From contig NZ_LMHZ01000046.1 of the NCBI RefSeq assembly GCF_001428545.1, positions 1 through 32,179 on the forward strand: a stretch of DNA of 32,179 nucleotides. The letters are read 5' to 3'. Below are positions 9,588 to 31,240 of this stretch, in pieces (position 1 is the first letter of the stretch; each line of letters starts with the position of its first letter). The translations under genes were made by a program, and so were the position numbers. A model generated the notes under the pieces. It worked only from the letters and a program-made list of their open reading frames with translations, was not told the origin of the DNA and ran no database searches. The DNA comes from Noviherbaspirillum sp. Root189 (lineage in GTDB: Bacteria; Pseudomonadota; Gammaproteobacteria; Burkholderiales; Burkholderiaceae_D).

Positions 9588-10496
9588 TCATCTCTTAAGG
9601 CGACTGTAGATGAATTCGGCCAGCGCAACGTCTTCTATACCGACCCCAATGGCTTTATAGAGGACGATACCGTGCTGGGATGGATTGCCCTGGCCGCAAT
9701 CCGTCAATACCTCTGAAAGCTCCTGAACCGTGTTCCAGTCTACTAAGCCTGGTTGAGCGAGGATGAGGTCTCCAGCTTCGACCATCGCTTGCTGCCGCCA
9801 CTCTACGACGATACGCGAAGCCCGCTTGATGAGATCATCGCCGACTTCCCTTGTATCCGGTTTGCTCGATCCAATGGCTGCCACGAACGCATTCGGCTTT
9901 ACGAGATGTCCATCAAAAAGAGGCGTCGCCGCTCTGGTTGCCGTTATCAACACATCAGCCTGCGCAGCCACAGATGCCGTTGACCCAACGGTGCATTTGA
10001 TCGAATAGCGACTTGAAATTTCGTCGGCAAACGCTTCGGGCCGGTCAATTCCTGCAACAATAACTTCCGAAAATTCCCGAACTGAAAGCATGGCAGGCAC
10101 GTGCGCCCTTGCTTGCACACCCGTACCAACGATGCCCAGTACTTTCGTGTCTTTTATAGCAAGAGCATCGGCGGCGAGAGCGGTGACTGCCGCCGTACGG
10201 AATTCCGTCATGGCATCTCCTTCCATCACTGCCAGGAGCGATCCATCGTCAGCAGAGAACAGCACCACGACAAACGTGAACTTGCCGTTTATGGTTGTGT
10301 AGAGTTTTGCTCCGACGGCATTTATTCCAGGGAGTATTGCTCCCATCATGCTCAACTTGGTCTTGTCACAATCAATCCGGACGCGCTCCTGCATCGTACC
10401 GCGACGAGCATATTCGCTGAAGGCGGTCCGCATGGTGCCGATTGCGTCTTCAACCGTCAGTGATGCAGCAACTTGTTCATTCGTTATAACGTTCAT
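9588..10496 (-). CDS. Ornithine cyclodeaminase / mu-crystallin family protein
   Basis: This family contains NAD(P)-dependent enzymes acting on cyclic or linear imines: ornithine cyclodeaminase, alanine dehydrogenase and ketimine reductases for pyrroline-2- or piperideine-2-carboxylate. This 302-residue protein has Lys64 in VGAKLYTT, the EFRTAAVTALAA segment and the nucleotide-binding GIVGTGVQAR (121-130). It lacks obvious extra domains. It is the last gene of the minus-strand group, 30 bp after a D-amino-acid dehydrogenase-like gene. That pairing favours reduction of the cyclic imine made by the dehydrogenase, as in D-proline or hydroxyproline routes; this is inference from context. Confidence 0.85.
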   Translation of the reverse strand: MNVITNEQVAASLTVEDAIGTMRTAFSEYARRGTMQERVRIDCDKTKLSMMGAILPGINAVGAKLYTTINGKFTFVVVLFSADDGSLLAVMEGDAMTEFRTAAVTALAADALAIKDTKVLGIVGTGVQARAHVPAMLSVREFSEVIVAGIDRPEAFADEISSRYSIKCTVGSTASVAAQADVLITATRAATPLFDGHLVKPNAFVAAIGSSKPDTREVGDDLIKRASRIVVEWRQQAMVEAGDLILAQPGLVDWNTVQELSEVLTDCGQGNPSQHGIVLYKAIGVGIEDVALAEFIYSRLKR

Positions 10497-10526: not shown

Positions 10527-11783
10527 TTATGCAGCCAAGCCTTGGGATAGCCCTTGTATTGGCCTCGCCTTGCCTGCGATATCCGCAGCAAGCAGCTCGG
10601 CGCTCCCACAAGCAAGGGTCCAACCCAATGCGCCGTGGCCGCAGTTCAGAAATAGGTTTGCAACAGGGGTTTTACCAATAATGGGACGCCCGCTTGGTGT
10701 CGCTGGACGTAAGCCTGCCCAGGGCGCGACACTGTCCTCCGCGGGGTCATCTGGGAAGAACAATTGCCTTGCCTCAAGCGCAAGTTCATTGCAGCGCTTT
10801 TCGTCGATATGAAGGTCTTCACCGACGATTTCGGCACGTCCGGCTACCCTGAGCTTGTTGCCAATTCGGGCATAAACAATTTTCTTCGCCTGATCGGTGA
10901 TACTTACGCTTGGCAAGCGCGCGGTAAGCTTGTCACTTTCAATCGTTACGCTGTAGCCTTTGAGAGGATAGACCGGCAGCCGGAGTCCTACTTGTTGAGC
11001 TAGTCGTGCGCTGCCGACACCGTTGGCCAGGACAAAGTGGTCGGCCGTTATATCGCCAATGGATGTACCGACGGCGTGAATGATGCCCCTGGAATGCCGG
11101 ACTTTGTTGACGCTCGCGTTGAACAGGAATTGGACACCGTAATCGCGGATTAGTGTGGCACCAAGTTGTTCACAGAACTGTACGCAGTCGCCGATCTCTT
11201 CGGAAGGCGTATAAACACCGCCTACCCAGCGCTGAATGGCGTGGGCAAGTGCAGGCTCAACGGCGACGCATTCGTCGCGCCTCAGAAGCTGTTGCTCACA
11301 ACCGAGGTCGGCCTGCAAGCGGATTTGCCGCCAGGCCCCATCAAAAGCCTTTTCCGAAGAAATCATGACAAGCTTGCCTGCTGCCCGGTGATTGAACTTC
11401 AGGGCATATCGATTTTGTAGCTCGTGTAACTTAGTACGGCTCAGGCTTGCCAACTCAAGCAGCATCGCGGTGGTACGGCGAGAATCCGTTGCATTGCAGG
11501 CCGCTAGAAACCGCACCAACCAGGTCCACTGCCGTAGTTTGAATTCCGGCTTCCAGGTTAAAGGAGAAGTAGAGCTCAAGAGATAAGCAGGAAGTTGTCG
11601 CCAAATTGCAGGTTCCGCTAAAGGCGCCACATAAGAGTAGCTTAACTGTGCTCCGTTCGCGTAACTTGTCCCTTTGCCAAAGGAATCGCTTGCATCAACA
11701 ACGGTCACTTCATACCCGCGCTTCGCAAGTGCGTAGGCGGTCGTAATGCCGATTACCCCCGCCCCAACCACACAGACTTTCAT
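10527..11783 (-). CDS. D-amino-acid dehydrogenase-like FAD oxidoreductase (DadA type)
   Basis: This 418-residue membrane-associated-type flavoprotein would oxidise D-amino acids to imino/keto acids. The N-terminal dinucleotide motif is VVGAGVIGITTAYALAKRG, followed by YANGAQLSYSYVAPLA, characteristic of the DadA family. The C-terminal GLRPATPSGRPIIG motif is also present. I chose the ATG at 11783 (MKVCVVGAG) because GGAG lies 7 bp upstream; an ATG 6 bp earlier is too close to it. It lies 78 bp after the Rrf2-like gene and 30 bp before the cyclodeaminase-family gene. Substrate could equally be a D-hydroxyproline-like compound. Confidence 0.88.
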   Translation of the reverse strand: MKVCVVGAGVIGITTAYALAKRGYEVTVVDASDSFGKGTSYANGAQLSYSYVAPLAEPAIWRQLPAYLLSSTSPLTWKPEFKLRQWTWLVRFLAACNATDSRRTTAMLLELASLSRTKLHELQNRYALKFNHRAAGKLVMISSEKAFDGAWRQIRLQADLGCEQQLLRRDECVAVEPALAHAIQRWVGGVYTPSEEIGDCVQFCEQLGATLIRDYGVQFLFNASVNKVRHSRGIIHAVGTSIGDITADHFVLANGVGSARLAQQVGLRLPVYPLKGYSVTIESDKLTARLPSVSITDQAKKIVYARIGNKLRVAGRAEIVGEDLHIDEKRCNELALEARQLFFPDDPAEDSVAPWAGLRPATPSGRPIIGKTPVANLFLNCGHGALGWTLACGSAELLAADIAGKARPIQGLSQGLAA

Positions 11784-11861
11784 TGCCATACTCCTGCTTG
11801 CAATAGTTCGTATAAATGCATGCCGTATGTGGCACACCTGTTAGTTTGTGAACAGGTTGCT

Positions 11862-12368
11862 TTATGCATAAGCAGCTTCCACGGAGTCGACATCCGGTTC
11901 ATATTTGCGAGTGGTGGACATACGAACGAAGTGCCGTCCGGACGTCTGCACTGTGTCCAACCGAAAGCGACGCAAGTGGGTCGCAATACTCTGGTCCAGT
12001 CCCAGAAACGCCTGAGAAGTGAGCAAGTCGACTTTATACACAGAGGCGTTGTCACAATCATCCGAGTCAGGCCCGCTCACGCTGGCGATCCCACCAATGG
12101 CACGCCATACTTCTTCAAGCGTTACCTCGGCAGGATCGACCGATAATGACCAGTGCTCGAAATCCGGCGTTAGTACGATGACTCCAGTTGTAGCCAGACA
12201 GGTACACACGTCGCTGATATCACCGGATTTCGCCTTCAATTCACGTGCAAGTTGGTCAACTGAAAGCGCCGCGCTGCTTTTTGAAACAAAGCGTTGGAGT
12301 ACCATAGCCGTAAGACGGAAGTAATCTAAAGTTGATGCAAGAGCGAGGGTAATTTCTGCGACTTTCAT
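11862..12368 (-). CDS. Putative Rrf2-like winged-helix regulator
   Basis: In this 168-residue protein the first 95 residues look like an Rrf2-type winged helix: TLDYFRLTAMVLQRFV, then LSVDQLARELKAKSGDISDVCTCLATTGVIVLT, then VTLEEVWRAIGG, the usual Rrf2 dimer-helix entry. The three clustered cysteines that hold an iron-sulfur cluster in IscR/NsrR are not present as a set, so any sensing is by other means. An AGGTGA ribosome-binding site lies 7 bp upstream. It sits 15 bp after the amidotransferase stop and upstream of the dehydrogenase, so it may regulate this operon. The family assignment is by pattern only. Confidence 0.55.
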   Translation of the reverse strand: MKVAEITLALASTLDYFRLTAMVLQRFVSKSSAALSVDQLARELKAKSGDISDVCTCLATTGVIVLTPDFEHWSLSVDPAEVTLEEVWRAIGGIASVSGPDSDDCDNASVYKVDLLTSQAFLGLDQSIATHLRRFRLDTVQTSGRHFVRMSTTRKYEPDVDSVEAAYA

Positions 12369-12383
12369 GCTGAGTCACCTGGT

Positions 12384-13472
12384 TTAGATTGTTGTGGATG
12401 GGTTCGTAGCGTTCGTAGCGTTCGTAGCGTTCGTAGCGTTCGTAGCGTTCGTAGCGTTCGTAGCGTTCGTAGCGTTCGTAGCGTTCGTAGCGTTCGTAGC
12501 GTTCGTAGCGTTCGTAGCGTTCGTAGCGTTCGTAGCGTTCGTTGCGTTCGTAGCGTTCGTTGCGTTCGTAGCGTTCGTAGCGTTCGTAGCGTTCGTTGCG
12601 TTCGTTGCGTTCGTAGCGTTCGTTGCGTTCGTAGCGTTCGTTGCGTTCGTTGCGTTCGTAGCGTTCGTAGCGTTCGTTGCGTTCGTTGCGTTCGTTGCGT
12701 TCGTTGCGTTCGTTGCGTTCGTTGCGTTCGTTGCGTTCGTTGCGGAAGAGATCTGTTTGCCCAGCATCGACATTCGCACCAGTTCCATGAAGATGTTTCC
12801 TTCCGGTGCATTGACCAGATATTCCGGATGCCACTGCACACCGAGACAGAATGTTTGTCCAGGGGCTTCGATGGATTCCACTACACCGTCGTCTGCTGTA
12901 GCGCTGACGCGCAAGGCTTTATTGCCACTCATGACAGCCTGATGATGCAGGCTGTTTATAATCAGCGTATCGGTACCAAGGACGCGACGAAGAAGAGTTC
13001 CCGATTCGATGCGGATCCGGTGCGTACCGATGCTGCAAGATTCAAATTGTTTATGTTCAATATCAGTTACGAGGTCCGAAGGAAGGTGCTGGTACAACTT
13101 GGCACCCAACTCCACGGCAATCAGTTGCATCCCTCCGCAAATGCCGAGGATGGGCATGTCCTTTGCCAACGCCCTTCGTAGCAATGCACGTTCAAAGGCG
13201 GTTCTGTCTTTTTTGACCGTAATTTTGTCAGGATGTCGGGCTGCCGTCCCATACTCTGACGGATCAATGTCGAACATCCCGCCTGTAACAATCAATCCAT
13301 CGATTAGTTGAACGTGCTCGCCAACGGCGTCCATGTCGTAGGGCAGGATGATCGGTATTCCTCCGGCGGCGGAAACCGCTGCACAATAATTCCTACGGAC
13401 GTGAAACTGCGATTCCACATTGTGCGGTTCGTCGCTACGGTCTGTGGTGATTCCTATTATTGGTCTAGTCAT
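12384..13472 (-). CDS. Class C26 glutamine amidotransferase (gamma-Glu-GABA hydrolase-like) with Asn-Ala-Thr repeat tail
   Basis: Residues 1-243 form a complete PuuD-like amidohydrolase with catalytic Cys112 in LGICGGMQ, His215 and Glu217 in VQWHPEY, and the TGGMFDIDPSEY segment. Such enzymes release glutamate from gamma-glutamyl amides in putrescine-type degradation. Residues 244-357 are about 38 Asn-Ala-Thr triplets encoded by a 9-bp tandem repeat, ending NPSTTI. The catalytic domain is already complete at normal family length, so the tail is an addition. The repeat's one variable base is synonymous here (Ala codon GCA/GCT). It is the first gene of a minus-strand group with the Rrf2-like, dehydrogenase and cyclodeaminase genes, and divergent from a LysR gene 151 bp away. 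Confidence 0.88.
   Translation of the reverse strand: MTRPIIGITTDRSDEPHNVESQFHVRRNYCAAVSAAGGIPIILPYDMDAVGEHVQLIDGLIVTGGMFDIDPSEYGTAARHPDKITVKKDRTAFERALLRRALAKDMPILGICGGMQLIAVELGAKLYQHLPSDLVTDIEHKQFESCSIGTHRIRIESGTLLRRVLGTDTLIINSLHHQAVMSGNKALRVSATADDGVVESIEAPGQTFCLGVQWHPEYLVNAPEGNIFMELVRMSMLGKQISSATNATNATNATNATNATNATNATNATNATNATNATNATNATNATNATNATNATNATNATNATNATNATNATNATNATNATNATNATNATNATNATNATNATNATNATNATNATNPSTTI
12403..12744. repeat. 9-bp tandem repeat, 38 units (minisatellite inside a gene)
   Basis: Plus-strand unit TTCGTWGCG is repeated 38 times without a break (342 bp). The only variation is T/A at the sixth base: units near 12403 all read GTAGCG, units near 12744 all read GTTGCG, and the middle alternates. 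This pattern suggests growth by slippage or unequal exchange from two ancestral variants. It codes for the Asn-Ala-Thr tail of the amidotransferase on the minus strand, and keeps every other frame on both strands open. Confidence 0.97.
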
Positions 13473-13623
13473 GTACGTTCCCTGATGGCGATGAAACGCA
13501 TTCTTGCGATTATTCGCCGCTTCGACAAACCAAGATTTCTATCTGCCGGTATTAGTTGCGCTAATGTGCAGACACGTTCTAGACTGTGTTTTGACCTGGA
13601 ATTGCCGATCTGAGGACTTTGAA

Positions 13624-14619
13624 ATGTCGCGCTCCCAACGCCTTACTCCAGCCGTTCTTCATGCATTGAAATATTTCGATGCTGCGGCGCGGCAACTGAG
13701 TTTTACCCGTGCCGCCGACGAACTCCACGTCACCCAAGGGGCGATAAGCCAGCAGATACGCGGGCTGGAAGATCAAATCGGCGTCAAATTATTTCAGCGC
13801 CTTGCCAAGGGGATAGCACTGTCCTACGAAGGTGAGCGTCTGCACAAGGTCGTCAAGCAACTGCTTTCTGACCTGGAAGCCGAGATACAGGCGATACAGC
13901 CTCAGTCGCCGAACCGACATCTGATAATCCGGTCCTCGTCGTCGTTTTGCATGATGTGGCTTATGCCTCGGCTTAATCGTTTCAGTCGCATGTATCCTCA
14001 TGTGGAAATACGCCTGAAAGGCGAGATGTTTGGTATGCCGATGGCTCAGATGAACGCTGAAGCCATCGACGCACTGATCGTGTACGGCCGCCCGGGGAAT
14101 GACGAGGCCGTCGAAGCGGTACCGCTGATGTCCGAGTTTCTGTTACCGGTGGCCAGCCCGGCCTACATCGAAAGACATGGCCAGATAACTGAGCTGGCGG
14201 ACTTTGTAGACCATACGCTGCTTCACGATGACTCCCCGTGGGAAGGCGCCCCTCCGTATGCTGAATGGGTAGAGTGGGTACGCGGCGTGACCGACGACAG
14301 GCGAGGTAAGGCAGAGAAGTTAGGGAAGCGAGGGAATCTATACAATCTGGCCCAATTGGCGACGAATGCGGCGTTGCTGGGGCAAGGGGTGTCCATCGCC
14401 CGAACATCGCTGATTCTGGATGAATTGGAAACCTCGCAATTAATGCCGGTGTACCCGGCTTACGTACAGTCCGCATCGACATACAGTTTGTTGCTTAATC
14501 CTGGAACGAGGGGGCGGGAATCCATTGAAACGTTCAAGGAATGGCTGCGAGAGGAATGCCGGGAGTCGGAGAGAAGGCGAAACGTGATCCTCCAGAAGAT
14601 CGCAAGACAAAGTCCCTAA
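13624..14619 (+). CDS. LysR-family regulator (GcvA-like)
   Basis: This 331-residue LysR-type regulator has a clear N-terminal helix-turn-helix (HALKYFDAAARQLSFTRAADELHVTQGAISQQIRGLEDQIGVKLFQR) and a GcvA-type effector domain. The start is the ATG at 13624, where the family normally begins; the open frame extends further upstream to 13504 without family similarity. It is divergent from the amidotransferase gene. LysR proteins usually control the divergent neighbour, so it is the likely regulator of the amino-acid block together with the Rrf2-like protein. Confidence 0.88.
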   Translation: MSRSQRLTPAVLHALKYFDAAARQLSFTRAADELHVTQGAISQQIRGLEDQIGVKLFQRLAKGIALSYEGERLHKVVKQLLSDLEAEIQAIQPQSPNRHLIIRSSSSFCMMWLMPRLNRFSRMYPHVEIRLKGEMFGMPMAQMNAEAIDALIVYGRPGNDEAVEAVPLMSEFLLPVASPAYIERHGQITELADFVDHTLLHDDSPWEGAPPYAEWVEWVRGVTDDRRGKAEKLGKRGNLYNLAQLATNAALLGQGVSIARTSLILDELETSQLMPVYPAYVQSASTYSLLLNPGTRGRESIETFKEWLREECRESERRRNVILQKIARQSP

Positions 14620-14953
14620 GGGGAGCGGTTCAAGGATAGTCATTAAGCGTATTGCGCGTTGCTGGTCTAAAAAAAATCCGCCATTGGACCTGTCGCCACC
14701 TACGGATCTCTTAGGTTTGTAGCGCCCAGATAGGTGGGCAATTCTCAAGTTGTCCATAGGACAGGATACGCAGCCATTAGATCAACTAATGGATCCCGAT
14801 AGAAAACATGACTTGTCGATGACAAGGCGTCCGACAAGAATACGAGCACGGAAGAGGATATAGGCAGGGCAAAACACCTGCAATCTTATGTCATGCCGTA
14901 GAACGTCTGTGCAATGCAGGCGCAATCAAATCGTTGCTTTCTTGGGGACTACT
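14620..14953. other. Intergenic leader with two inverted repeats upstream of a binding-protein gene
   Basis: This 334-bp stretch has no convincing gene. It contains a perfect 7-bp inverted repeat CCATTAG/CTAATGG with a 5-bp loop (14774-14792). A second, CTTGTC-gat-GACAAG, lies at 14812-14826. Neither has a U-run, so operators or mRNA structure are more likely than terminators. They precede the substrate-binding protein at 14954. Confidence 0.4.
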
Positions 14954-16105
14954 ATGAATACCAACCTGAATCTTCTCGCTCTCAGCTTAACGTCTGCATT
15001 GACATTGAGCGCAAGTGCGCATGCTCAGGATCTCGTTGTAAAAATCGGCCATGTTGCACCACTCTCGGGGCAATCCGCGCATATGGGAAAGGATACGGAA
15101 GATGGGGCACGCCTGGCGATCGAAGAACTGAACGCGAAGAACATCAAGATTGGCAGTAGTGTCGCGCGATTCGAGTTGCTGGGAGAGGACGATGGAAGCG
15201 ATCCAAAGCAAGCAACGGCGGCTGCACAGAAGCTCGTCGATGCGAAAGTAAACGGTGTGATTGGCCACATGAATTCTGGAACGACGATCCCGGCGTCGAA
15301 GATTTACAATACCGCCGGAATACCACAGATCTCTCCTTCTGCAACCAACCCAAAATACACACAGCAGGGATTCAACACGGCGTTTCGAGTCGTCGCAAAC
15401 GACGGTCAGCTCGGCGGAACACTCGGGCGGTATGCCGTTCAAGTTAATCAGGCGAAAAACATCGCTGTTATTGATGACCGTACAGCGTATGGCCAGGGCG
15501 TAGCTGATGAGTTCGTAAAAGGCGCAACTGGCAAGGCCAAATCAGTGTCGATCGTCGCCCGGCAATATACAACTGATAAAGCGACCGATTTCAGTTCGAT
15601 CCTTACCCAAATAAAAAGCAAAAACCCCGACGTCGTCTTCTTCGGTGGCATGGATGCGGTTGGTGGTCCGATCCTTCGTCAAATGAAGCAGCTCGGGATT
15701 GAGGCAAAGTTTATGGGGGGCGATGGTATTTGTTCCACTGAGTTGGCGCGACTGGCGGGGGATGCCATTGGTGAAGGTAAGGTAGTCTGCGCTGAAGCGG
15801 GTGGCGTGGAAGAAGGAAAGAAGGCTGAGCTTGAGGCTTTCCGGACAAGGTTCAGCAAGCGGTTCGGCCACGAAGTAGTGCTGAATGCACCCTATGCATA
15901 CGACGCCGTGATGGTCATGGTAGCGGCCATGCAGAAGGCAGGTTCCGCCGAACCGGCCAATTACCTCCCTGAACTGGCAAAGGTTAACTACAAGGGCGTA
16001 ACTGGAACGATTGCCTTCGACAAGAATGGCGATATCGTCAATGGCACACTGACCTTATACACCTACAAGAACGGTAAGCGGGAAGTGATTACAGTAACGA
16101 AATAA
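14954..16105 (+). CDS. Branched-chain amino-acid-type ABC substrate-binding protein (LivJ/LivK family)
   Basis: This periplasmic binding protein of 383 residues has a signal peptide ending SASAHAQ near residue 24. The mature part begins DLVVKIGHVAPLSGQSAHMGKDTEDGARLAIEELNAK, the standard start of the Liv family. The GHMNSGTTIPASKIYN ligand-site segment and an internal two-lobe pattern follow. The ATG at 14954 is chosen because it places the signal peptide correctly. No permease or ATPase genes of a Liv transporter follow, so it must use a transporter encoded elsewhere or serve as a sensor. The ligand is probably an amino acid given its neighbours. Confidence 0.9.
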   Translation: MNTNLNLLALSLTSALTLSASAHAQDLVVKIGHVAPLSGQSAHMGKDTEDGARLAIEELNAKNIKIGSSVARFELLGEDDGSDPKQATAAAQKLVDAKVNGVIGHMNSGTTIPASKIYNTAGIPQISPSATNPKYTQQGFNTAFRVVANDGQLGGTLGRYAVQVNQAKNIAVIDDRTAYGQGVADEFVKGATGKAKSVSIVARQYTTDKATDFSSILTQIKSKNPDVVFFGGMDAVGGPILRQMKQLGIEAKFMGGDGICSTELARLAGDAIGEGKVVCAEAGGVEEGKKAELEAFRTRFSKRFGHEVVLNAPYAYDAVMVMVAAMQKAGSAEPANYLPELAKVNYKGVTGTIAFDKNGDIVNGTLTLYTYKNGKREVITVTK

Positions 16106-16207
16106 CGCGCGAGGCGGACCCTGCCAGGCGCCTCATGGCCCTGGCATGAAGTAGGAATCCAGGCTGCACAAGTGGCTCGGTCGTTACCTTCACAGTTAAG
16201 GGTAAAG

Positions 16208-17113
16208 ATGAAGAAAGCGCATGGTTACTGCCGAATTTCACTCGGCATCGCACAAGTGATGATAGCGACAGTAGCAATCGACGCATCTGCTGGAGAGACA
16301 TTAGGCCGCATTGAGCGCTCGGGCAAGGTAGTGCTTGGTGTAAGGACTGATTCTGTCCCATTTTCTTACACAGACGCATCCGGTAAGCCGATTGGATACT
16401 CGATGGATTTGTGTACCAAACTGGTGGAAGCCATCAAGGCAAAGGTCAAGCAGCCGGACCTTAAGACAGAGTTCCTGATCGTCACGCCATCGTCGCGATT
16501 TTCAGCCATAGTCGACGGCAAAGCCGACCTGGATTGTGGTCCCACCACCAATACCGCAGAGCGACGTAAGCTGGTAAGTTTCACCATCCCGCATTTTGTT
16601 GCAACAGCCCGAATGATTGTTCGTACTGATTCAGGAATAAAGAACTGGTCTGATCTGCGGGATAAAACCATCGTGACGACCAAGGGGACGACGAATGCGA
16701 CCTCGATCATGGAGCGCAACAATGCACGTGCGCTCAACCTAAAGCTGGTAGAAGCAGATAGCGATAGCGAAGCGTTCCAAAAGCTTGAGAAGAGATTAGC
16801 AGACGCCTTTGCGATGGACGACGTCCTTTTATATGGGCTGAAGGCTAACTCCGCAACGCCACAAAGTTATGACGTTGTAGGCGACGCTTTGACAGTTGAA
16901 CCGTATGCCATCATGTTTTCTAAGAGTGATCGTGAACTTCAGTTGTTGGTAGACAAGGAAATGGCGAGCATTATCAGTTCTGGCGATATTTACGGGCTTT
17001 ATGAAAAGTGGTTTACAAAACCCATTCCACCTCGGAACGTCAATCTGACCATGCCAATGCATCCTCTGCTCCGCTCATCATTTCGGTTTCCGTCAATCGG
17101 AGTAGGTGATTGA
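16208..17113 (+). CDS. Glutamate/aspartate-type ABC substrate-binding protein (GltI family)
   Basis: This 301-residue periplasmic binding protein has an N-terminal hydrophobic signal ending around VAIDASA. The mature part contains RIERSGKVVLGVRTDSVPFSYTDASGKPIGYSMDLC and DLDCGPTTNTAERRKLVSFTIPHFVATARMIV, the canonical amino-acid SBP_bac_3 motifs, and resembles GltI. The start is the ATG at 16208. It lies 102 bp after the Liv-type protein on the same strand and ends before a strong terminator. As with its neighbour, no permease or ATPase is present. Confidence 0.88.
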   Translation: MKKAHGYCRISLGIAQVMIATVAIDASAGETLGRIERSGKVVLGVRTDSVPFSYTDASGKPIGYSMDLCTKLVEAIKAKVKQPDLKTEFLIVTPSSRFSAIVDGKADLDCGPTTNTAERRKLVSFTIPHFVATARMIVRTDSGIKNWSDLRDKTIVTTKGTTNATSIMERNNARALNLKLVEADSDSEAFQKLEKRLADAFAMDDVLLYGLKANSATPQSYDVVGDALTVEPYAIMFSKSDRELQLLVDKEMASIISSGDIYGLYEKWFTKPIPPRNVNLTMPMHPLLRSSFRFPSIGVGD

Positions 17114-17331: not shown

Positions 17332-17694
17332 ATGAATCAACTGCAGCGATCCCATGTCGGTCCCCGGCTATCTGAGGTTGCCCACTATGAAGGCGTTTTG
17401 TATCTCGCCGGCCAGGTTACTAATGATACTAAACAAGATATAACAGGACAGACAGCCGAAGTGCTTACAATGATCGATACCTTGCTAGAAGAGCACGGTA
17501 GCGATAAAACACGAATCTTGTCATGCATGATTTACCTTGCAGATATGAGCATGTTCAAACAAATGAACGCAGTGTGGGATGCGTGGGTAGTGCCAGGCGC
17601 TACGCCACCTCGGGCAACCGTCGAAGCAAAGTTGGCGTCACCACAAAATCTAATCGAGATCGTAATTACAGCAGCAGTAAAGCAAACTACATGA
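17332..17694 (+). CDS. RidA (YjgF/YER057c) family protein
   Basis: RidA proteins hydrolyse reactive enamine/imine intermediates released by amino-acid-degrading enzymes. This 120-residue protein has the core GVLYLAGQV, the middle helices and PPRATVEAKL with the key Arg94, followed by LIEIVITA. The N-terminal pocket segment differs from archetypal RidA, so it is probably a paralogue with its own substrate range. It stands alone after a terminator. An imine deaminase is a natural partner for the dehydrogenase and cyclodeaminase-like enzymes at 9.6-11.8 kb. Confidence 0.85.
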   Translation: MNQLQRSHVGPRLSEVAHYEGVLYLAGQVTNDTKQDITGQTAEVLTMIDTLLEEHGSDKTRILSCMIYLADMSMFKQMNAVWDAWVVPGATPPRATVEAKLASPQNLIEIVITAAVKQTT

Positions 17695-18730: not shown

Positions 18731-19833
18731 GGTGAGCATTACAGGAACGCTTCACCTTTCGTCGCTTGCTTCCATAGCCGTCGGAATGTGGCCTATAGCT
18801 CATTGCCCAAGAGCAGATTATGAGAGTGAGCTCTACGGGAACAACTCACCTTCTTTTTACGGTGAGTTCTACAGGAACACTCGGAGTTGTTCTTTAACTG
18901 CCCATGTCAATCAAGAAATTTTTATAAGAATGAAGACTTGGCTGTTGGGTGTCACTGCCACCGGTGAGCCCCGCAGGAACGTAATCACCTTTTGAAAGGT
19001 GAGCTTGACGGGAACACCCTCACCTTTTGTCTAGATTTCCCTTTATAGGGCGCTCCATACTGGATATCGCTTAATGAAAGTACACACTTACTTACATCGG
19101 ATACCTGTTGACTGTGTGAAATGTCTTTTAAGGCGAGGATAAGTGCTCCTAACCTGGCTTGCTAAGGTGAGCCTTACGGGAACATGAAGCTCAGCGTTCC
19201 TGCAGAACTCACCTTAAGCCCGGGCTATGTATGCCACAAGAAGCCTCCTGCAAGCTGTTTGCTGTCCTCATGTTCCCGTACAACTCACCTTTGAGCGATG
19301 GAAGTCGAGATTTCGTTTGGAAAACAGCCTTAAGGTTTTACCCGCCGGGCGCTGCCGCACTGAATGCGTTCAACCGTCGCCGGCTAGACCGGTGCCTTGT
19401 ACGAGGTGTTCCTGTAGAGCTCACCATTCACGATGAGGAGCAACATGGCCGTGTCGCCTGCCAGCGGGGGTCTTCAGCGTGACGGAACGCGGGTTGTTAG
19501 AAGGGTGACTAGTATTGTGCGAGCTTAAGGAGCCCATGCAGTTGGCTTGTTTTCGTATTGCTCTCGCATTGAGGGTTTTTTGATAGTAAACCCTTGTAAA
19601 CCTTGTAAACCATTAAGGATCGCCGCAAACCCGCGTCCAGTAAGGGTTGTAGCTGGTTTGGGTGAGTGCATCCGTAACTCTGGTGAAGTCATACAGGAAC
19701 AGAAGTGAGTGGACTCGGTATCGTTTCCTGAATAGGTGAGTACTTTAGGGAACACGAGTGAGTGGACTCGGGAAAGGTCTCATCGTATCGGTGAGCGCCA
19801 CAGGAACAATCTATTGGTGAGTGCTACGGGAAC
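18731..19833. repeat. Iteron array, probable replication origin (oriV)
   Basis: About thirteen copies of an 18-19 bp iteron, consensus GGTGAGYNNTACRGGAAC, lie upstream of the initiator gene. Forward copies start at 18731, 18825, 18861, 18963, 18998 and 19166. Reverse copies span 19196-19213, 19272-19289 and 19408-19425. Forward copies again start at 19682, 19735 (both 19 bp), 19790 and 19816. Four of the first six are followed within 3-4 bp by an inverted TCACCTT half-site. AGTGAGTGGACTCGG also occurs twice, at 19704 and 19757, between iterons. No convincing DnaA box was seen. The gap at 19426-19681 holds an AT-richer stretch with TTGTAAACC twice. Confidence 0.9.
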
Positions 19834-19933
19834 GCAAAGGTGAAATCGATAACACATCGATCCAAACGTGAAAAAAAGGTTGATTGGAAATCACCTTACA
19901 TGCATAGTACCGATTTTCACCCCTACTCGAACC

Positions 19934-21512: not shown

Positions 21513-21553
21513 AATTCCATGCTTTGCCTAAAAAATAGGATAAGCATGGAATT
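21513..21553. promoter_or_regulatory. Inverted repeat in the parA leader, candidate operator
   Basis: Perfect 12-bp arms AATTCCATGCTT (21513-21524) and AAGCATGGAATT (21542-21553) are separated by 17 bp. They sit just downstream of the candidate -10 and end 16 bp before the parA start. ParA proteins with an N-terminal helix-turn-helix commonly repress their own operon by binding such repeats; alternatively it forms an mRNA hairpin. Confidence 0.65.
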
Positions 21554-21569
21554 CTTAAGAGAGGTAGGT

Positions 21570-22799
21570 ATGAGCGTTAAACCGTTGACACTGAAACGTA
21601 AAAAAATTGATGTTGTGAGGCTGAACAGCATCGCAGACCGAGCTGGCGGCGCGCTCACTGAACTCCGCAACATTCTGCTTGAGCCGTGGCCTCGCAAAAT
21701 GGCACCTATCGTCTCCGGCCCGCGTGTCGCAAAGCTTTCCGGTGTAACGCTCGAGAAATTGAACTACCTCGTCAAAAAAGGTGAAATCGAACCCGGCACC
21801 GTCAAAGGAAATGGTCGAAGCCGGGAGTATTCCCTCGCACAAGCGCAGGCGATTGTGCGGAAGATCGGCGGCAAAAAATATCGGTCGCCGGGTACAGGCG
21901 CGGTATCAATCAGCGTCGGAAATTTCAAAGGCGGCGTCGGCAAGACGACGAATGCGGTCGCAATCGCTCAGGGCTTCACCCTCCGTGGCTACAAGGTGCT
22001 CCTGATGGACCTTGATCCTCAGGCATCAAGTACAACAATGATGGGCTATATTCCCGACGCGGAAGTGCCTGAAGAAATGACGGTAATGCCGGCGGTATAT
22101 GGCGAGGAGACAGATCTTCGCTATGCAGTCCAGGAAACTTACTGGCATAACCTGTTTTTTATTCCAGCTTCGCCCTCTCTGTTTGGTGCAGATTTCTATC
22201 TGCCAAACAAACAGTCTCAAGATCCCAGTTTTGAGTTCTGGCGGGTGTTGGAGGTGGCCCTTGACCCGCTCCGGCAAGAGTACGACATCATCGTCATTGA
22301 TACCCCCCCTACCCTCTCATACTTGGCCATTGCGTCATTCATGGCGACTGATGGACTGGTTGTGCCGGTTCCGCCGGAAACCCTGGATTACGCGTCCAGT
22401 ACGCAGTTCTTCCGGCAGTTTGCAGAACTGTTCACGAAGATGCAGGAGATGAGGCCGATTCAAAAGGAATTTGAGTTCATCAAAATCTTCCTTTCGAAAG
22501 TCAAGGAGACGGCTTCGACGACCAACGCGGTACGCGGCTGGATTCGTCAGACCTACCCGGACATTCTCGGGACATCTGAAGTCCTGGAATCGGATGTCGT
22601 GAAAAACGCCTCGGCGCAGTTCAAGACGGTATACGACCTGAGTAATTACGAGGGTAGTGCACGTACATATAACCGCGCATTGGAAGCTTTCGATGGTTTG
22701 GTCGACGAGCTTGAAGAGGAAGTGACGGCCGTCTGGGAATCTGCGGACGAAGACACCGAAGCGAGTGAACCCAAAGAACCCACTGCCGTTCCGGAGTAA
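21570..22799 (+). CDS. parA: ParA partition ATPase (type Ia)
   Basis: This ATPase moves plasmid copies by dynamic binding to the nucleoid. The 409-residue protein has an N-terminal helix-turn-helix-like region (about 45-95, PRVAKLSGVTLEKLNYLVKKGEIEPG) and then the deviant Walker A KGGVGKTT (120-127). LMDLDPQAS and IIVIDTPPT follow. The N-terminal extension marks type Ia ParA, which also represses its own promoter; an inverted repeat lies just upstream. The start is the ATG at 21570 with GAGAGG before it; the frame is open to 21519. parB follows after 3 bp. The acidic C-terminal tail is low complexity. Confidence 0.93.
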   Translation: MSVKPLTLKRKKIDVVRLNSIADRAGGALTELRNILLEPWPRKMAPIVSGPRVAKLSGVTLEKLNYLVKKGEIEPGTVKGNGRSREYSLAQAQAIVRKIGGKKYRSPGTGAVSISVGNFKGGVGKTTNAVAIAQGFTLRGYKVLLMDLDPQASSTTMMGYIPDAEVPEEMTVMPAVYGEETDLRYAVQETYWHNLFFIPASPSLFGADFYLPNKQSQDPSFEFWRVLEVALDPLRQEYDIIVIDTPPTLSYLAIASFMATDGLVVPVPPETLDYASSTQFFRQFAELFTKMQEMRPIQKEFEFIKIFLSKVKETASTTNAVRGWIRQTYPDILGTSEVLESDVVKNASAQFKTVYDLSNYEGSARTYNRALEAFDGLVDELEEEVTAVWESADEDTEASEPKEPTAVPE

Positions 22800-22802
22800 T
22801 CA

Positions 22803-23828
22803 ATGACCGACAAAAAGCCTACTCCTGACAAACGTACCGGCCTCGGTGCGAAGCTCGAAAGCCGAACGGCCGCCCTTGGCAGTCGACTGGAACAACATCA
22901 AGGTCGTACCGCCAATTCACCACCTGTCACCATGCCCGGCCAGCTTGGCGCATTTCGTATCGAAGCCCAGCGCTGGCAGGAACGCATCAATGAGTTGGAG
23001 GAAGACCTCCGACGAGCAAAAGAGCAGGGCGGGGCGATGGAGATCAGCCTCGACGAACTGCATGAAGTGGAAGGTCGGCGTCGGCGGTTGTCAGCTGATG
23101 AATACGAAGATCTCAAAAATAACCTTTCCCATAATCCCTTGGCATCCCCCATCACCGTTCGTGTTCGCGCTGAAGGTGGATTTGAGATTGTGTCAGGTCA
23201 TAACAGGGTGCAGATTTACCGCGACCTGGGTAGAAAACAAATCAAGGCATGGCTGGCGGACGCAAGCGATGACGAAGCCGAAGATCTCGCTTTCTTTGCC
23301 AATGCCCTAGCTGCCAAGTTACCCGATTATGACAAGTACCGCGGTTACAAACGCATCATGGAAAAACATCCACATCTGGATGAGAAGGATTTATCTGAGC
23401 GTGTCGGTACTTCACTTCGGCAACTGAAACGGTTGTTGGCTTTTCAGAAGTTGCCGGAAACAGCGCATCAGCTTCTGCAAGAGCGCCCTTCACTGCTTGG
23501 TGCAACAGCCGCAGAAACCTTGGCTGATTTGAGTGTCAAGGGACGTGAAGGACAGGTGGCAGAAGCTGTACAAAAGCTTTTCAATGGAGAAATTGCTGAT
23601 GAGCGCGATGCCCTTCGCTATGCGGCGACAGCCGGCATTGAAAAGCCCGCCAAGCCGGTGCCGGTTGAACAGACTTTTAAAGTTGGAAAAACCAAGTACG
23701 CCACGCTACGTCAAGTCAGAGCGATGGTACGGGTTGATTGTGCATCTGAGGCTGAAGCTGCTGAAGTGAATGCGGCGATTGCCAAGCTGCTGGAAGACAG
23801 GGTACGGGCGTTGAAAGATGAAAAATAG
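22803..23828 (+). CDS. parB: ParB partition protein
   Basis: This 341-residue centromere-binding partner of ParA has a charged N-terminus and a short coiled coil (about 52-76). A ParB/sulfiredoxin-type nucleotide-binding domain contains PLASPITVRV and SGHNRVQIYRDLG (131-143). A helix-turn-helix follows around 195-217 (DLSERVGTSLRQLKRLLAFQKLP), with a C-terminal dimerisation part. The CTP-binding box usually reads GERRxRA; here it is SGHNRV, a variant seen in secondary-replicon ParBs. It starts 3 bp after parA. A palindrome immediately downstream (23832-23844) is a candidate binding site. Confidence 0.92.
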   Translation: MTDKKPTPDKRTGLGAKLESRTAALGSRLEQHQGRTANSPPVTMPGQLGAFRIEAQRWQERINELEEDLRRAKEQGGAMEISLDELHEVEGRRRRLSADEYEDLKNNLSHNPLASPITVRVRAEGGFEIVSGHNRVQIYRDLGRKQIKAWLADASDDEAEDLAFFANALAAKLPDYDKYRGYKRIMEKHPHLDEKDLSERVGTSLRQLKRLLAFQKLPETAHQLLQERPSLLGATAAETLADLSVKGREGQVAEAVQKLFNGEIADERDALRYAATAGIEKPAKPVPVEQTFKVGKTKYATLRQVRAMVRVDCASEAEAAEVNAAIAKLLEDRVRALKDEK

Positions 23829-25960: not shown

Positions 25961-26653
25961 CTACAGCTTGCGCTGAATGTAGATATCGGTCTCGCCCCAC
26001 AGAAATTGTCCGCTGACTTTCTGTTCCAACTCGAACATCGGCACATCCGTATAGGACATGAGGGAGTAGCTGACCGAAACAACCCGCGTCCCAGGTCGCA
26101 GCGTGGCAAAGTGTTCGACCAGTTTGACAATCGCCGTATCGCTGAATGCCGTGCCGTATAAATAGATGACGGTCGCATCGCTATAGTCGGCATTCATCAA
26201 ATTGGCGAGCACGAATTCGACCCCATCAATATTCAGCATTTTCCGGATCCGCCGTGCCTGCGTGACGAATACCGGATTGATCTCGATGCCGACAGCGCGA
26301 CAGCCGAACATTGCGTTGAACCAGAACACGCTACGTCCTCGTCCACAGCCCAGGTCGTATACCACATCCTTGCTGTCAAGCTTGACCGCGCCGGCGACTT
26401 TGTCGAGCGTCGTGAAAAAACTTTCTCCGTACATTTTTTGCACTTGATCGTCGGGAAAGCTCTTTAAGAAGCGCTCGCAAATCGTATAAGGGTCACGTGT
26501 CAGATAAGTCCAAAGACAAAGCAGATCGGCGCGACGGAAGCGCGCATTTGGATAGTAGCGACGGAGGGTGGTCGCATATTCCTTCAGTCCGTTGACTACG
26601 TGAATGGGATAGGCAGCCAATGCAAGAAGGGGAGAGAGAAGACTTTTTTCCAT
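25961..26653 (-). CDS. Class I SAM-dependent methyltransferase
   Basis: This 230-residue protein has a Rossmann-type methyltransferase core: motif I VVYDLGCGRGRSVFWF (residues 97-112), then AVGIEINPVFVTQARRI with the ribose-binding Glu124. LANLMNADYSDATVIYLYGTAF is the motif IV region. The arrangement resembles Dot1-like protein methyltransferases, but substrate residues cannot be assigned. The N-terminus carries a hydrophobic segment (LLSPLLALAAYPIHVV) that might touch a membrane. It lies 72 bp after the putative effector on the same strand and may be co-transcribed with it. Whether it is secreted, modifies the effector or is unrelated is unknown. Confidence 0.75.
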   Translation of the reverse strand: MEKSLLSPLLALAAYPIHVVNGLKEYATTLRRYYPNARFRRADLLCLWTYLTRDPYTICERFLKSFPDDQVQKMYGESFFTTLDKVAGAVKLDSKDVVYDLGCGRGRSVFWFNAMFGCRAVGIEINPVFVTQARRIRKMLNIDGVEFVLANLMNADYSDATVIYLYGTAFSDTAIVKLVEHFATLRPGTRVVSVSYSLMSYTDVPMFELEQKVSGQFLWGETDIYIQRKL

Positions 26654-26725: not shown

Positions 26726-27751
26726 TTAGTGAGCAAAAACCGAACCGTTTTCTGAATCGAAGTCGTTTTCTGAATCGGATTGAACCTCCTGGAAAAGGAA
26801 AGGGACGTCCTCTTTCGAAACTGTTATACCGTTGTTCTCAAGTTCGGTTTGAAATAAAGAATAGAGGCTATTCGAAACATTTCCATCCAGGTTCGACAGG
26901 TCCTTAGATTTTGACGAAAAAACGTATTTTGACGGTATAGAATCTTTCGTCCTATAGCCCATACCGTCCCTGTCGTCGGGGTCCACAACATCAAGGAGAT
27001 CAGGATCCGGCTCGAGTGAAACGGTGTTGTCGCCCAAGCCTACTCTTACCAATGCCGGGTGGTTTCCGTCAGCAAGCTTGGCATACGATTTTGCCTCGTC
27101 TTTATCAGGTGTAACGTAATTATGCGTCGCCGCATTGAGAACGAAGTTATCGACATCCTCTTGTGTTGCCTTCTCACGCATTTCGGAAGTTTCTTCACTA
27201 TTTAAATAAGCGACAGTAGAGCCCGCCGTTTTCTTATTTGTGTCAAAACCATCCCGTTGAATGCCTTTCTTTGAGACAGCGCTCGTACCGTGATAGTGGC
27301 GTATCTCGTCGTACACAATTTTAATCGTCTGTTGGGCCTCGGGAGAATAGCCACTAAATATTGGCCATGCCTCTGAAGCAGATTTAATTCTAGATTGTTG
27401 TATCGGCTCCTTAATCGATGCTGTTTCCTCGTGACTTCCGGTGCCAACGGGCGCCGTCGCAGACCCGACGTGTGAAGGCTGACGATAACGAGTGACGGAC
27501 ATGCTTTGCTGGATTGGATGCGCGTCGCACCCAGCAGACGACGTGGCACTGGGCACCTTAGGTGCTGTGTCAACGACGGCGAGGCGATACAAGTCCGGAT
27601 GAGTGGGGCGTTTACCTGTGCGATAGATAGGCTGCTCACCCCTTGGCAAGGGAGTTGCGGCATTTGAAGAGCTTTCTGTGCTTTCAGCTCGGTTGTCTGT
27701 TGGCAAACAACAATTAAACAGAGAAGCTACTGCATCACGTATTGTATTCAT
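26726..27751 (-). CDS. Putative type III effector with ADP-ribosyltransferase-like domain
   Basis: Numbering is from the ATG at 27751 (341 residues). Residues 1-130 are rich in Ser, Thr and Pro with little predicted structure, as in type III effectors. From 150 on, elements of an ADP-ribosyltransferase fold appear in order: HYHGTSAVSKKGIQRDGF (His154), HNYVTPDKDEAKSYAKL (Tyr212), ALVRVGLGDNTVSLEPDPD and RTKDSIPSKYVF. This is the His-Tyr pattern of PARP-like enzymes; a catalytic Glu is not obvious. An ATG at 27787 adds 12 residues, but the 27751 start has AAAGGA upstream and leaves a sensible leader after the weak HrpL-like box at 27804-27831. Codon use is less GC-rich than in the catabolic genes. 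Confidence 0.55.
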   Translation of the reverse strand: MNTIRDAVASLFNCCLPTDNRAESTESSSNAATPLPRGEQPIYRTGKRPTHPDLYRLAVVDTAPKVPSATSSAGCDAHPIQQSMSVTRYRQPSHVGSATAPVGTGSHEETASIKEPIQQSRIKSASEAWPIFSGYSPEAQQTIKIVYDEIRHYHGTSAVSKKGIQRDGFDTNKKTAGSTVAYLNSEETSEMREKATQEDVDNFVLNAATHNYVTPDKDEAKSYAKLADGNHPALVRVGLGDNTVSLEPDPDLLDVVDPDDRDGMGYRTKDSIPSKYVFSSKSKDLSNLDGNVSNSLYSLFQTELENNGITVSKEDVPFLFQEVQSDSENDFDSENGSVFAH

Positions 27752-27803
27752 TTCCAGTGTGTTCCTTTGTGCAGTGAAGTTGGACATTCAGATTGACTGT
27801 TGA

Positions 27804-28598: not shown

Positions 28599-28862
28599 AT
28601 GAAGAAAAGCCGATACAGCGACGAGCAAATCGTCCGAATTTTGCGGGAAGCGGACAAGACCCCGATTGCCGAGGTGGCCAAGCGCCACGGCGTGAGTGAG
28701 CAAAGCATCTACGGCTGGCGCAAGCGTTTTGGCGAGATGGGGACCGACGAGGTGAAGAATCTCAAGGCCCTGGAGCAGGAGAATGCCCGGCTCAAGAAGT
28801 TGCTGGCTGAGCGGGATCTCGAAATTGAAGTGATGAAGGAGATTTCCCGAAAAAAATGGTAA
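28599..28862 (+). CDS. IS3-family transposase OrfA
   Basis: This 87-residue DNA-binding part of the transposase has a helix-turn-helix (SDEQIVRILREADKTPIAEVAKRHGVSEQSIYGWRKRF) followed by a leucine-zipper-like helix (LKALEQENARLKKLLAERDLEIEVMKEI). It ends in a run of seven A residues just before the stop, a plausible -1 slippage site that would fuse it to OrfB as in other IS3 elements. Confidence 0.93.
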   Translation: MKKSRYSDEQIVRILREADKTPIAEVAKRHGVSEQSIYGWRKRFGEMGTDEVKNLKALEQENARLKKLLAERDLEIEVMKEISRKKW

Positions 28863-29704
28863 GCGCACCAGGTCGACGGATTGCGGCGCTCTACGCAGTT
28901 GAGCGAGGAATCTCTCAACGTCGAGCTGGTGCGCTCATGCAGGTGGCAAGGTCCAGCCTGCTGTATATACCAACTCTGCCACAGAAGAATGCACCTGTGA
29001 CGAGGGCTATGCATCGGCTGTCATGCCAGTATCCCCGTTACGGATCCCGCCGTATCCGCGTGTTCCTCGGACGGGAAGGCATCGTTGTGGGCAAGGAGAA
29101 ATGCAGTCGTCTGTGGGCAGAACAAGGGCTACAGGTACCACGCAAGCGTCCCCGACGCAAAGTGGCAGCAAGCAGACCACGTCCACTTGCGCCGTCCAAG
29201 GCAAATTCGGTATGGAGCTACGACTTCGTCTTCGATGCCTGCGCCAACGGCCAGCAAATCAAATGTTTGACGGTAGTCGACGAATTCACTCGCGAGGCGC
29301 TTGCCATTGATGTGGCTGGATCGATTCGTTCGGGCCGAGTGATTGATGTACTGGCGCGCCTCATCAGCGTGCGAGGCGCGCCACGCTACCTACGCAGTGA
29401 CAATGGCCCCGAGTTCGTAAGCCTTGCCTTACTCAAGTGGATAACCGATCAAGGGATAGAATGTGCACTGATCGACCCGGGTAAGCCGTGGCAAAACGGA
29501 ACGACAGAAAGCTTCAACGGCAAGTTCCGTGACGAATGCCTGGCCATGGAATGGTTCAGGAATCGTCTTGAAGCCAGGGTTGTGATCGAGGACTGGCGGC
29601 AGCATTACAATCGAGTCAGGCCACATTCCAGCCTGAACTATGAAACTCCAGAAGCGTTCAGCAAGAAAGTAACAACTTTATCCACCGGAGCTATCCCAAA
29701 TTAG
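28856..29704 (+). CDS. IS3-family transposase OrfB (DDE integrase)
   Basis: This 282-residue catalytic part has the DDE triad at Asp123 (WSYDFVFDA), Asp182 (RSDNGPEF) and Glu218 (GTTESFNGKFRDECL), the last two separated by 35 residues as in all IS3 members. The HTH_21-like segment YPRYGSRRIRVFLGREG precedes it. It overlaps OrfA by 7 bp in the -1 frame and is intact, so the element may be active. Confidence 0.95.
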   Translation: MVSAPGRRIAALYAVERGISQRRAGALMQVARSSLLYIPTLPQKNAPVTRAMHRLSCQYPRYGSRRIRVFLGREGIVVGKEKCSRLWAEQGLQVPRKRPRRKVAASRPRPLAPSKANSVWSYDFVFDACANGQQIKCLTVVDEFTREALAIDVAGSIRSGRVIDVLARLISVRGAPRYLRSDNGPEFVSLALLKWITDQGIECALIDPGKPWQNGTTESFNGKFRDECLAMEWFRNRLEARVVIEDWRQHYNRVRPHSSLNYETPEAFSKKVTTLSTGAIPN

Positions 29705-30307: not shown

Positions 30308-31240
30308 ATGATCCTACGCATGCAGGCACGGCCACGCCATCCTCTCGCAACGCGAATCACAACCCGCTCGCGGCTCATGCCGACGGCGGTAGGGCGGCTT
30401 TCGGCGTTGTTGTTGCTGAGTCTTCTATGCGCATGCGGCAAGGTGGTCGACCTGCAGTCGGGACTCAAGGATGCCGACGCAAACGAAATGGTGACCGTCC
30501 TCAACCGTCACGGCGTCGATGCGCAGAAGCGGACCACCAAGGAAGGCGTCGCCTTGTCGGTAAAGGACACCGATATCTCGCGCGCCACCGAGGCCCTGAA
30601 CGCTGCAGGCCTGCCGCGCCGCAATCTGTCCAATCTCGGACAGGTCTTCAAGAAGGAAGGGATGATCTCCACCCCACTGGAAGAGCGGGTGCGATATATC
30701 CATGGCCTTTCTTCGGAGCTGGAATACACCTTGCAGCAGTTCGACCATGTCATATCGGCACGGGTGCACGTCGTTCTACCCGAACGCGTCGCACCGGGCG
30801 AGCCGATCCAGCCTTCCTCCGCCGCAGTGTTCATCAAATACATTCCGCCGCTGGACGAAGACATGATCGTGCCGCGCGTGCGCAATCTGGTCGCCTCCAG
30901 CATTCCCGGCCTGTCCGGCGAAGAAGGGCGCAGCAAGGTCTCGGTCGTGCTCGCCGCCAGCGAACTCACCGCACCGGCAGTCGAATGGACCACCGTCGGG
31001 CCGTTCCATGTCATGGCCGATTCCGCCGGGGGCTTGATCGGCACCATCACCAGCATCATCGCCGTGTTTGCGCTGGCGCTGCTTGCCATGTTGTTCGTGA
31101 TACTGCAGCTGCATCCAAAGACTGCCGATTGGATGCGCAAACGTTTCGGCAAGGTCTTGCCGTTCAAGGTGGACAACGAGACGAGTAATGAACAAGCGTC
31201 GCAGACGGCGGCACAGACTGCACCCAAGCCATCGAACTGA
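30308..31240 (+). CDS. sctJ: Type III secretion inner-membrane ring lipoprotein SctJ (HrcJ)
   Basis: SctJ builds the periplasmic face of the inner-membrane ring. The protein (310 residues) has a lipoprotein signal (LSALLLLSLLCAC, lipidated Cys43) and the YscJ/FliF domain: VVDLQSGLKDADANEMVTVLNRHGVDAQK, ISTPLEERVRYIHGLSSELEYTLQQFDHVISARVHVVLPE and SAAVFIKY. A C-terminal membrane helix lies at about 243-268, with a basic cytoplasmic tail after it. An ATG at 30377 would place the signal peptide right at the N-terminus (287 residues) and is a good alternative start; 30308 is favoured by coupling to sctI. Confidence 0.92.
   Translation: MILRMQARPRHPLATRITTRSRLMPTAVGRLSALLLLSLLCACGKVVDLQSGLKDADANEMVTVLNRHGVDAQKRTTKEGVALSVKDTDISRATEALNAAGLPRRNLSNLGQVFKKEGMISTPLEERVRYIHGLSSELEYTLQQFDHVISARVHVVLPERVAPGEPIQPSSAAVFIKYIPPLDEDMIVPRVRNLVASSIPGLSGEEGRSKVSVVLAASELTAPAVEWTTVGPFHVMADSAGGLIGTITSIIAVFALALLAMLFVILQLHPKTADWMRKRFGKVLPFKVDNETSNEQASQTAAQTAPKPSN

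Follow-up and report, generated by a model that had tools for sequence, protein, structure and literature searches.

A nine-base coding minisatellite, probably grown by slippage, at the C-terminus of a Peptidase_C26-type enzyme in Noviherbaspirillum sp. Root189

Introduction

In one survey, satellites are described as abundant in Burkholderia, with units of 6-8 nt, and prokaryotic satellites are said to be often parts of genes, mainly with units that are longer than 30 nt and divisible by three (PMC6749651). A second study reports an under-representation of Asn in the low-complexity regions of prokaryotes (PMC6821194). Errors in repeat number occur in short-read assemblies, and the numbers can be far off, according to a third (PMC6868369).

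The array presented here consists of near-identical tandem units in frame, as coding minisatellites or VNTRs do. It lies in the window (the whole stretch of DNA that was analysed, a contig of 32,179 nucleotides from Noviherbaspirillum sp. Root189), and it gives an enzyme an Asn-rich tail, which is atypical in composition in view of the under-representation of Asn mentioned above. No report of a named NAT (Asn-Ala-Thr) tail, or of a like C-terminal repeat extension, was found in the literature searched.

Results

The array and its gene occupy the following positions.

12384 to 13472, minus strand: Peptidase_C26-type gene, 362 aa with the tail (open reading frame and PF07722 match)
12822 to 13463, minus strand: Peptidase_C26 domain, residues 4-217 (Pfam, structure relatives and alignment)
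12402 to 12743, minus strand: 9-bp array (GCW ACG AAC)x38, encoding (Ala-Thr-Asn)38
12384 to 12401, minus strand: end after the array, PSTTI and the stop TAA

The array is situated in frame at the 3' end of the 362-residue open reading frame and accounts for 114 residues; in the gene direction it is preceded by ATC TCT TCC and followed by CCA TCC ACA ACA ATC TAA. TRF reported a period of 9 with 38.1 copies and 96% matches at 12402-12744, and the unit-by-unit reading agreed with it, which bears out the 38-unit array and the NAT tail of about 114 residues described in the first-pass annotation. The units are identical save for W, the third base of the Ala codon, which is A in 15 units and T in 23. 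Its order in the gene direction is AAAAAAAATTAATATAATTTATATTTTTTTTTTTTTTT, with A toward the 5' end, T toward the 3' end and a mixture in the middle. The two variants are clustered (12 runs versus 19.2 expected, z -2.5), which fits local copying.

The array is not due to chance. The motif AACGCWACG has no further copy in the window, and across 794 kb of the source genome it was found as 10 single copies, never doubled. Four tandem units of the array DNA were present in one of 392 genomes of the family, namely the source genome itself, and five units in three records of a collection of 84,980 species; the numbers of pure peptide units in these three were 7, 8 and 7, with 65 to 394 open-frame residues past the repeat.

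The variable base is silent in the gene, as had been stated earlier; that it is synonymous in this frame only did not hold, since the plus-strand frame reading FVA (GTA/GTT, both Val) is unchanged as well. Its silence in the gene is therefore no sign of selection, and the codon argument for selection is not sustained: there is one polymorphic site, perhaps the product of one event, and of the 27 single-base changes that the 9-bp unit can undergo, 7 are synonymous. Neither are all six frames open, as had been proposed: five are open within the array, and the plus-strand frame reading S-stop-R has 23 TAG stops.

The PF07722 match of the enzyme part (E 3.8e-58; 197.3 bits, gathering cut-off 20.5) covered model positions 1-219 of 219. 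Cys112, His215 and Glu217, the catalytic residues of this family, were invariant in all eight sequences of the core alignment (the window protein and seven orthologues). The structure relatives included 3fij (5.3e-32) and PuuD 6vtv (4e-25), and the cut-off of the PuuD equivalog model NF008471 (gamma-Glu-GABA hydrolase) was not reached (101.5 versus 266 bits). Judged from the sequence, the enzyme part seems to be intact, with the tail starting past the domain, which agrees with the earlier description of an in-frame minisatellite tail on a complete enzyme. The calculated masses are 37,989 Da for the whole protein and 26,610 Da for residues 1-243. The protein start is unlike a signal peptide by eye, and the enzyme is probably cytosolic. 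The AlphaFold single-sequence model had a mean pLDDT of 47.4, with residues 1-243 below 50 and residues 242-356 forming one helix (pLDDT about 97 in its middle); as the core failed, little weight is given to it. Low-complexity repeats tend to be over-called as helices. Two further matches on this protein were rejected as compositional, namely Plasmodium_HRP of Pfam on the tail (38 bits, below the cut-off of 45.8) and wall_bind_EntC of NCBIfam (23.1 bits, below the cut-off of 770).

Seven orthologues with 57-61% identity were found, all in one other genus (threshold 1e-50; with the source genome, 8 of 392 genomes of the family), and the same seven were returned when 43 genomes of that genus were searched. 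They are 240-278 aa long from the first ATG (the window protein without its array would have 248 aa), end near the start of the tail of the window protein and have no terminal repeat. Since their C-terminal residues differ among themselves, the form of the C-terminus before the array arose can only be guessed. In the genus of the window (15 genomes, the source included), 13 genomes had a match at E <= 0.001, and no orthologue was found in the 14 congeners, the non-self matches being of 28-37% identity and E 3.1e-26 or weaker. The search for closer orthologues in a sample of the order returned one genome of 399, with the window gene itself. No relatives were confirmed in genome contigs by short peptide patterns, a method that detects close relatives only. 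No near DNA match was found in the plasmid collection, and 177 of its records had more distant C26 relatives, all below 60% identity.

The neighbouring genes were compared with the seven orthologue loci (13.7-20 kb each).

9588 to 10496, minus strand: ornithine cyclodeaminase/mu-crystallin family gene (Pfam)
10527 to 11837, minus strand: D-amino acid dehydrogenase-like FAD oxidoreductase gene (DAO 1.5e-67; NF001933 455.1 bits, cut-off 383)
11862 to 12368, minus strand: 168-aa gene without Pfam or NCBIfam match (relatives of 30-35% identity in 6 of the 7 related-genus loci)
13504 to 14619, plus strand: divergent LysR-type regulator gene (Pfam; relative in 7 of 7 loci)
14888 to 16105, plus strand: periplasmic amino-acid-type binding protein gene (Pfam; relative in 7 of 7 loci)
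16172 to 17113, plus strand: family 3 solute-binding protein gene (Pfam; relative in 4 of 7 loci)
17332 to 17694, plus strand: RidA family protein gene (Pfam; relative in 0 of 7 loci)

Relatives of the DAO and ornithine cyclodeaminase family genes were present in five of the seven loci, and the distance from the C26 gene to the LysR-type relative is at most 0.3 kb in four loci and 2.5-5.3 kb in three. The ATG of the 168-aa gene stands 15 bases past the C26 stop, with AGGTGA at 12375-12380 as its likely ribosome site (by eye). The cluster of C26 hydrolase, D-amino acid dehydrogenase, ornithine cyclodeaminase family protein and binding proteins is partly conserved and is probably catabolic.

TRF was also run on a non-random sample of the genome, comprising 118 pieces and 2,316,435 bases, or 38% of the genome (assembly of 90 contigs and 6,147,767 bases); it took in the starts of most contigs as far as C50, part of C40 and the greater part of C1, C12, C13, C23 and C34. 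Sixteen further rows with at least five copies of units of 5-60 bp were obtained, representing 13 distinct places. The largest were arrays of 23.8 and 20.3 copies of 6 bp, 17.1 copies of 15 bp and 14.8 copies of 6 bp, followed by 13.9 and 11.2 copies of 9 bp and 12.0 and 8.4 copies of 8 bp, the rest being smaller. Among these 13 arrays, whose frames were examined in part, one was a 9-bp in-frame array near a C-terminus; it codes for TTS.

Positions 17019-18491 of L281 (G000:C34:177019-178491): gene of a 491-aa exported-looking hydrolase with nine TTS units (Peptidase_S15 and alpha/beta-hydrolase matches)

The TTS units form residues 451-477 and are followed by TTATAPTTAAVTGP, so that this array stops 14 residues short of the end; the start of the protein is signal-like by eye. 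The hydrolase was present in all 15 genomes of the genus, and the array was absent from the copies of the 14 congeners. Past the aligned hydrolase core there are 96 residues in the source genome versus 1-43 in the 14 congeners. TGP is the end of the protein in 11 of these and AGP in two, and in the fourteenth one residue is left. Elsewhere in the sample, 6-bp arrays gave rise to Thr-Pro stretches in open frames of 662 residues (L246:11606-12024) and 3036 residues (L231:13739-13899). An 8-bp unit, CCCAACAC, is repeated 8.4 times at L181:151-217 (G000:C10), immediately 3' of the stop codon of a DeoR-family regulator gene on the minus strand (218-979); the length of this unit is not a multiple of three.

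Several other features of the contig were recorded. Eight iteron-like 17-bp repeats and three inverted-sense copies lie at 18732-19833, followed by a Rep3 gene at 19868 and by ParA- and ParB-type genes at 21519-23828, and these together probably represent a plasmid origin. The 230-aa product of 25961-26653 has a match to DOT1-like methyltransferases (2.1e-11). A 353-aa open reading frame without Pfam match (26726-27787), whose product could be secreted, is accompanied on the contig by an integrase-core transposase gene (28856-29704) and a YscJ/FliF-family gene (30308-31240).

Discussion

Based on these results, the array is likely to be an intragenic coding minisatellite that arose through slippage or unequal recombination at a C-terminus under weak constraint and that probably has little function. 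The unit GCA ACG AAC near the 3' end of the C26 gene would have been tandemly copied by replication slippage or unequal recombination. Since the unit consists of three codons, is stop-free in the frame of the gene and lies past the catalytic domain, gain or loss of units would preserve the frame, the PSTTI end, the stop and the start of the next gene. The tail would be tolerated, probably close to neutral, and the enzyme would most likely still work in its cluster for the catabolism of amino acid derivatives. We infer the slippage route, a length that is variable at present, near-neutrality and the translation of the tail. Two enzymes of the genome have 9-bp in-frame arrays near the C-terminus and array-less orthologues, as is predicted by tolerated slippage. 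Several points speak against this reading: the 38 units exceed every other copy number in the genome sample, the next being 23.8; the dissimilar ends of the orthologues leave the starting point of the array to guesswork; PMC6749651 links units divisible by three with coding sequence mainly where the units are longer than 30 nt; and the tail helix of the AlphaFold model, which carries little weight, would, if real, be at odds with a disordered tail. Hairpins give slippage no help either, and expansion driven by them was rejected, as two stretches, on both strands, folded worse as single strands than all of 200 shuffles (z +3.7 to +4.8).

The locus is a clean natural example of how a conserved enzyme can acquire a long low-complexity tail, and both the orthologues without a tail and the second array of the genome are there for comparison. 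The codon-level neatness and the N-x-T motifs of such arrays stem from repetition and are by themselves no sign of function.

A reading compatible with slippage is that the array exists but owes its length to the assembly, the run of 15 identical units being a graph cycle or a duplicated overlap. We regard this as possible, though somewhat doubtful. The last run of the array consists of 15 identical units, i.e., 141 bp of perfect period 9, and six 127-mers are repeated in the window (none at 135); short reads are consequently unable to fix this run. In the sampled genome there were 34 two-copy duplications with a period of at least 80 and at least 97% identity, 18 of them in the first 5 kb of 13 of the 47 contig starts. 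The period of 11 of these 18 was 96-100, and 99 bp is exactly 11 units of the array. The duplications at contig starts resemble what unmerged overlaps would leave. Against this reading, the longest exact repeat through unit 24 is 66 bp, and that part would be hard to fake; the flanks of the array are unique on both sides, and no such duplication was found by TRF in the window. Moreover, 11 of the 34 duplications are interior (outside the first 5 kb and more than 2.5 kb from the contig end), and some of these may be real; the remaining five lie within 2.5 kb of a contig end. The array is thus taken to be real in kind, and the unit number of its last run may be wrong by several.

The near-exact two-copy duplications in the first 5 kb, which were seen in L172, L173, L183, L184, L185, L189, L197, L201, L203, L205, L208 and others, are probably assembly joins and could distort the genes there.

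It is very unlikely that the tail serves as a length-tunable low-complexity tag, whether as a helical rod, as an oligomerisation or partition element, or as a Thr-rich tail O-glycosylated by the resident GT41 enzyme. One OGT/SPINDLY-like protein of the GT41 family is encoded in the genome.

Positions 6777-8345 of L194 (G000:C40): gene of a SPINDLY/OGT-like GT41 glycosyltransferase of 523 aa with weak N-terminal TPR matches

Its structure matches were SPINDLY (1.1e-78), 5djs (3.3e-71), XcOGT (1e-45) and, more weakly, the HMW1C-like glycosyltransferase 3q3e (7.6e-7). The entry 5djs is labelled as a TPR protein, and we take it to be a bacterial OGT. A helical rod would be in line with the high pLDDT of the tail helix, but the core of that model failed and its prediction for the tail is not trustworthy. 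That another Thr/Ser-rich array lies close to a C-terminus in this genome could point to a shared use; the protein with that array, which has the signal-like start, would however belong to a different compartment. Pure NAT units are also encoded in phage contigs. The degenerate NAT pattern occurred in at least 120 viral stretches, 115 of the 120 listed having at least four pure units and the longest nine, and three of the seven viral NAT proteins scanned against PHROGs matched tail families. None of the seven orthologues of the C26 enzyme has the tail, which also argues against a function as a tag. Very unlikely, too, is the wider proposal that the species actively grows Thr-rich three-residue C-terminal arrays (NAT cytosolic, TTS exported) as length-tunable tags, e.g., as substrates of GT41 (O-GlcNAc/fucose-type) or as enzyme-clustering rods.

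That the array is a DNA element, such as a plasmid iteron or a partition site, which happens to fall in a gene is highly improbable. Rep3, ParA and ParB-like genes do lie on the contig, 7-11 kb from the array, but the 9-bp unit has no copy elsewhere in the window, and the eight iteron-like repeats before the rep gene have 17 bp and are unlike it; the repeat of the array is thus not the repeat at the replication gene.

Glycosylation of the tail through N-x-T sequons had also been suggested; N-glycosylation is unlikely, and selection of the tail as its target is scarcely credible: 37 of the 38 tail Asn residues do stand in N-A-T while residues 1-243 are without any N-x-S/T, but every repeat of this unit would yield N-A-T, no N-glycosyltransferase (STT3 or NGT) was found in the source genome, the sole GT41 protein found is SPINDLY/OGT-like rather than NGT-like (33.2 bits against the NCBIfam N-glucosyltransferase model, cut-off 1000) and has DUF4214 proteins on both sides, no export signal was seen by eye on the enzyme, and the seven orthologues lack the tail. 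Two Wzy_C matches were found in the source genome. The Wzy_C family also includes O-oligosaccharyltransferases, which act outside the cytoplasm. Some O-modification of the Thr residues in the tail is conceivable.

Slippage at a tolerant C-terminus remains the preferred reading, and the locus can be compared with known systems. With the PuuD-like gamma-glutamyl hydrolases and other Peptidase_C26 proteins (3fij, 6vtv), the window enzyme has in common the whole domain and the Cys-His-Glu residues. It differs from its seven orthologues, of 240-278 aa and without a repeat tail, in its 362 aa and the tail. The (TTS)9 hydrolase resembles it in having a 9-bp in-frame array near the C-terminus and orthologues without array, and is unlike it in its codons and peptide, the shorter array, the signal-like start, the kept T/A-GP end and an Ala/Pro/Thr-rich linker that was already present in the relatives. 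The phage NAT proteins of IMG/VR have pure NAT units, as does the tail in the window, but at most nine of them among the 120 matches listed versus 38, and no relation to C26 was seen. Compared with the coding satellites described in PMC6749651, which mostly have units of more than 30 nt, the array in the window has a unit of 9 nt, lies at the very end of a metabolic enzyme and is known from one strain; what it shares with these intragenic coding VNTRs is the array within a gene, the unit divisible by three and the resulting amino-acid repeat.
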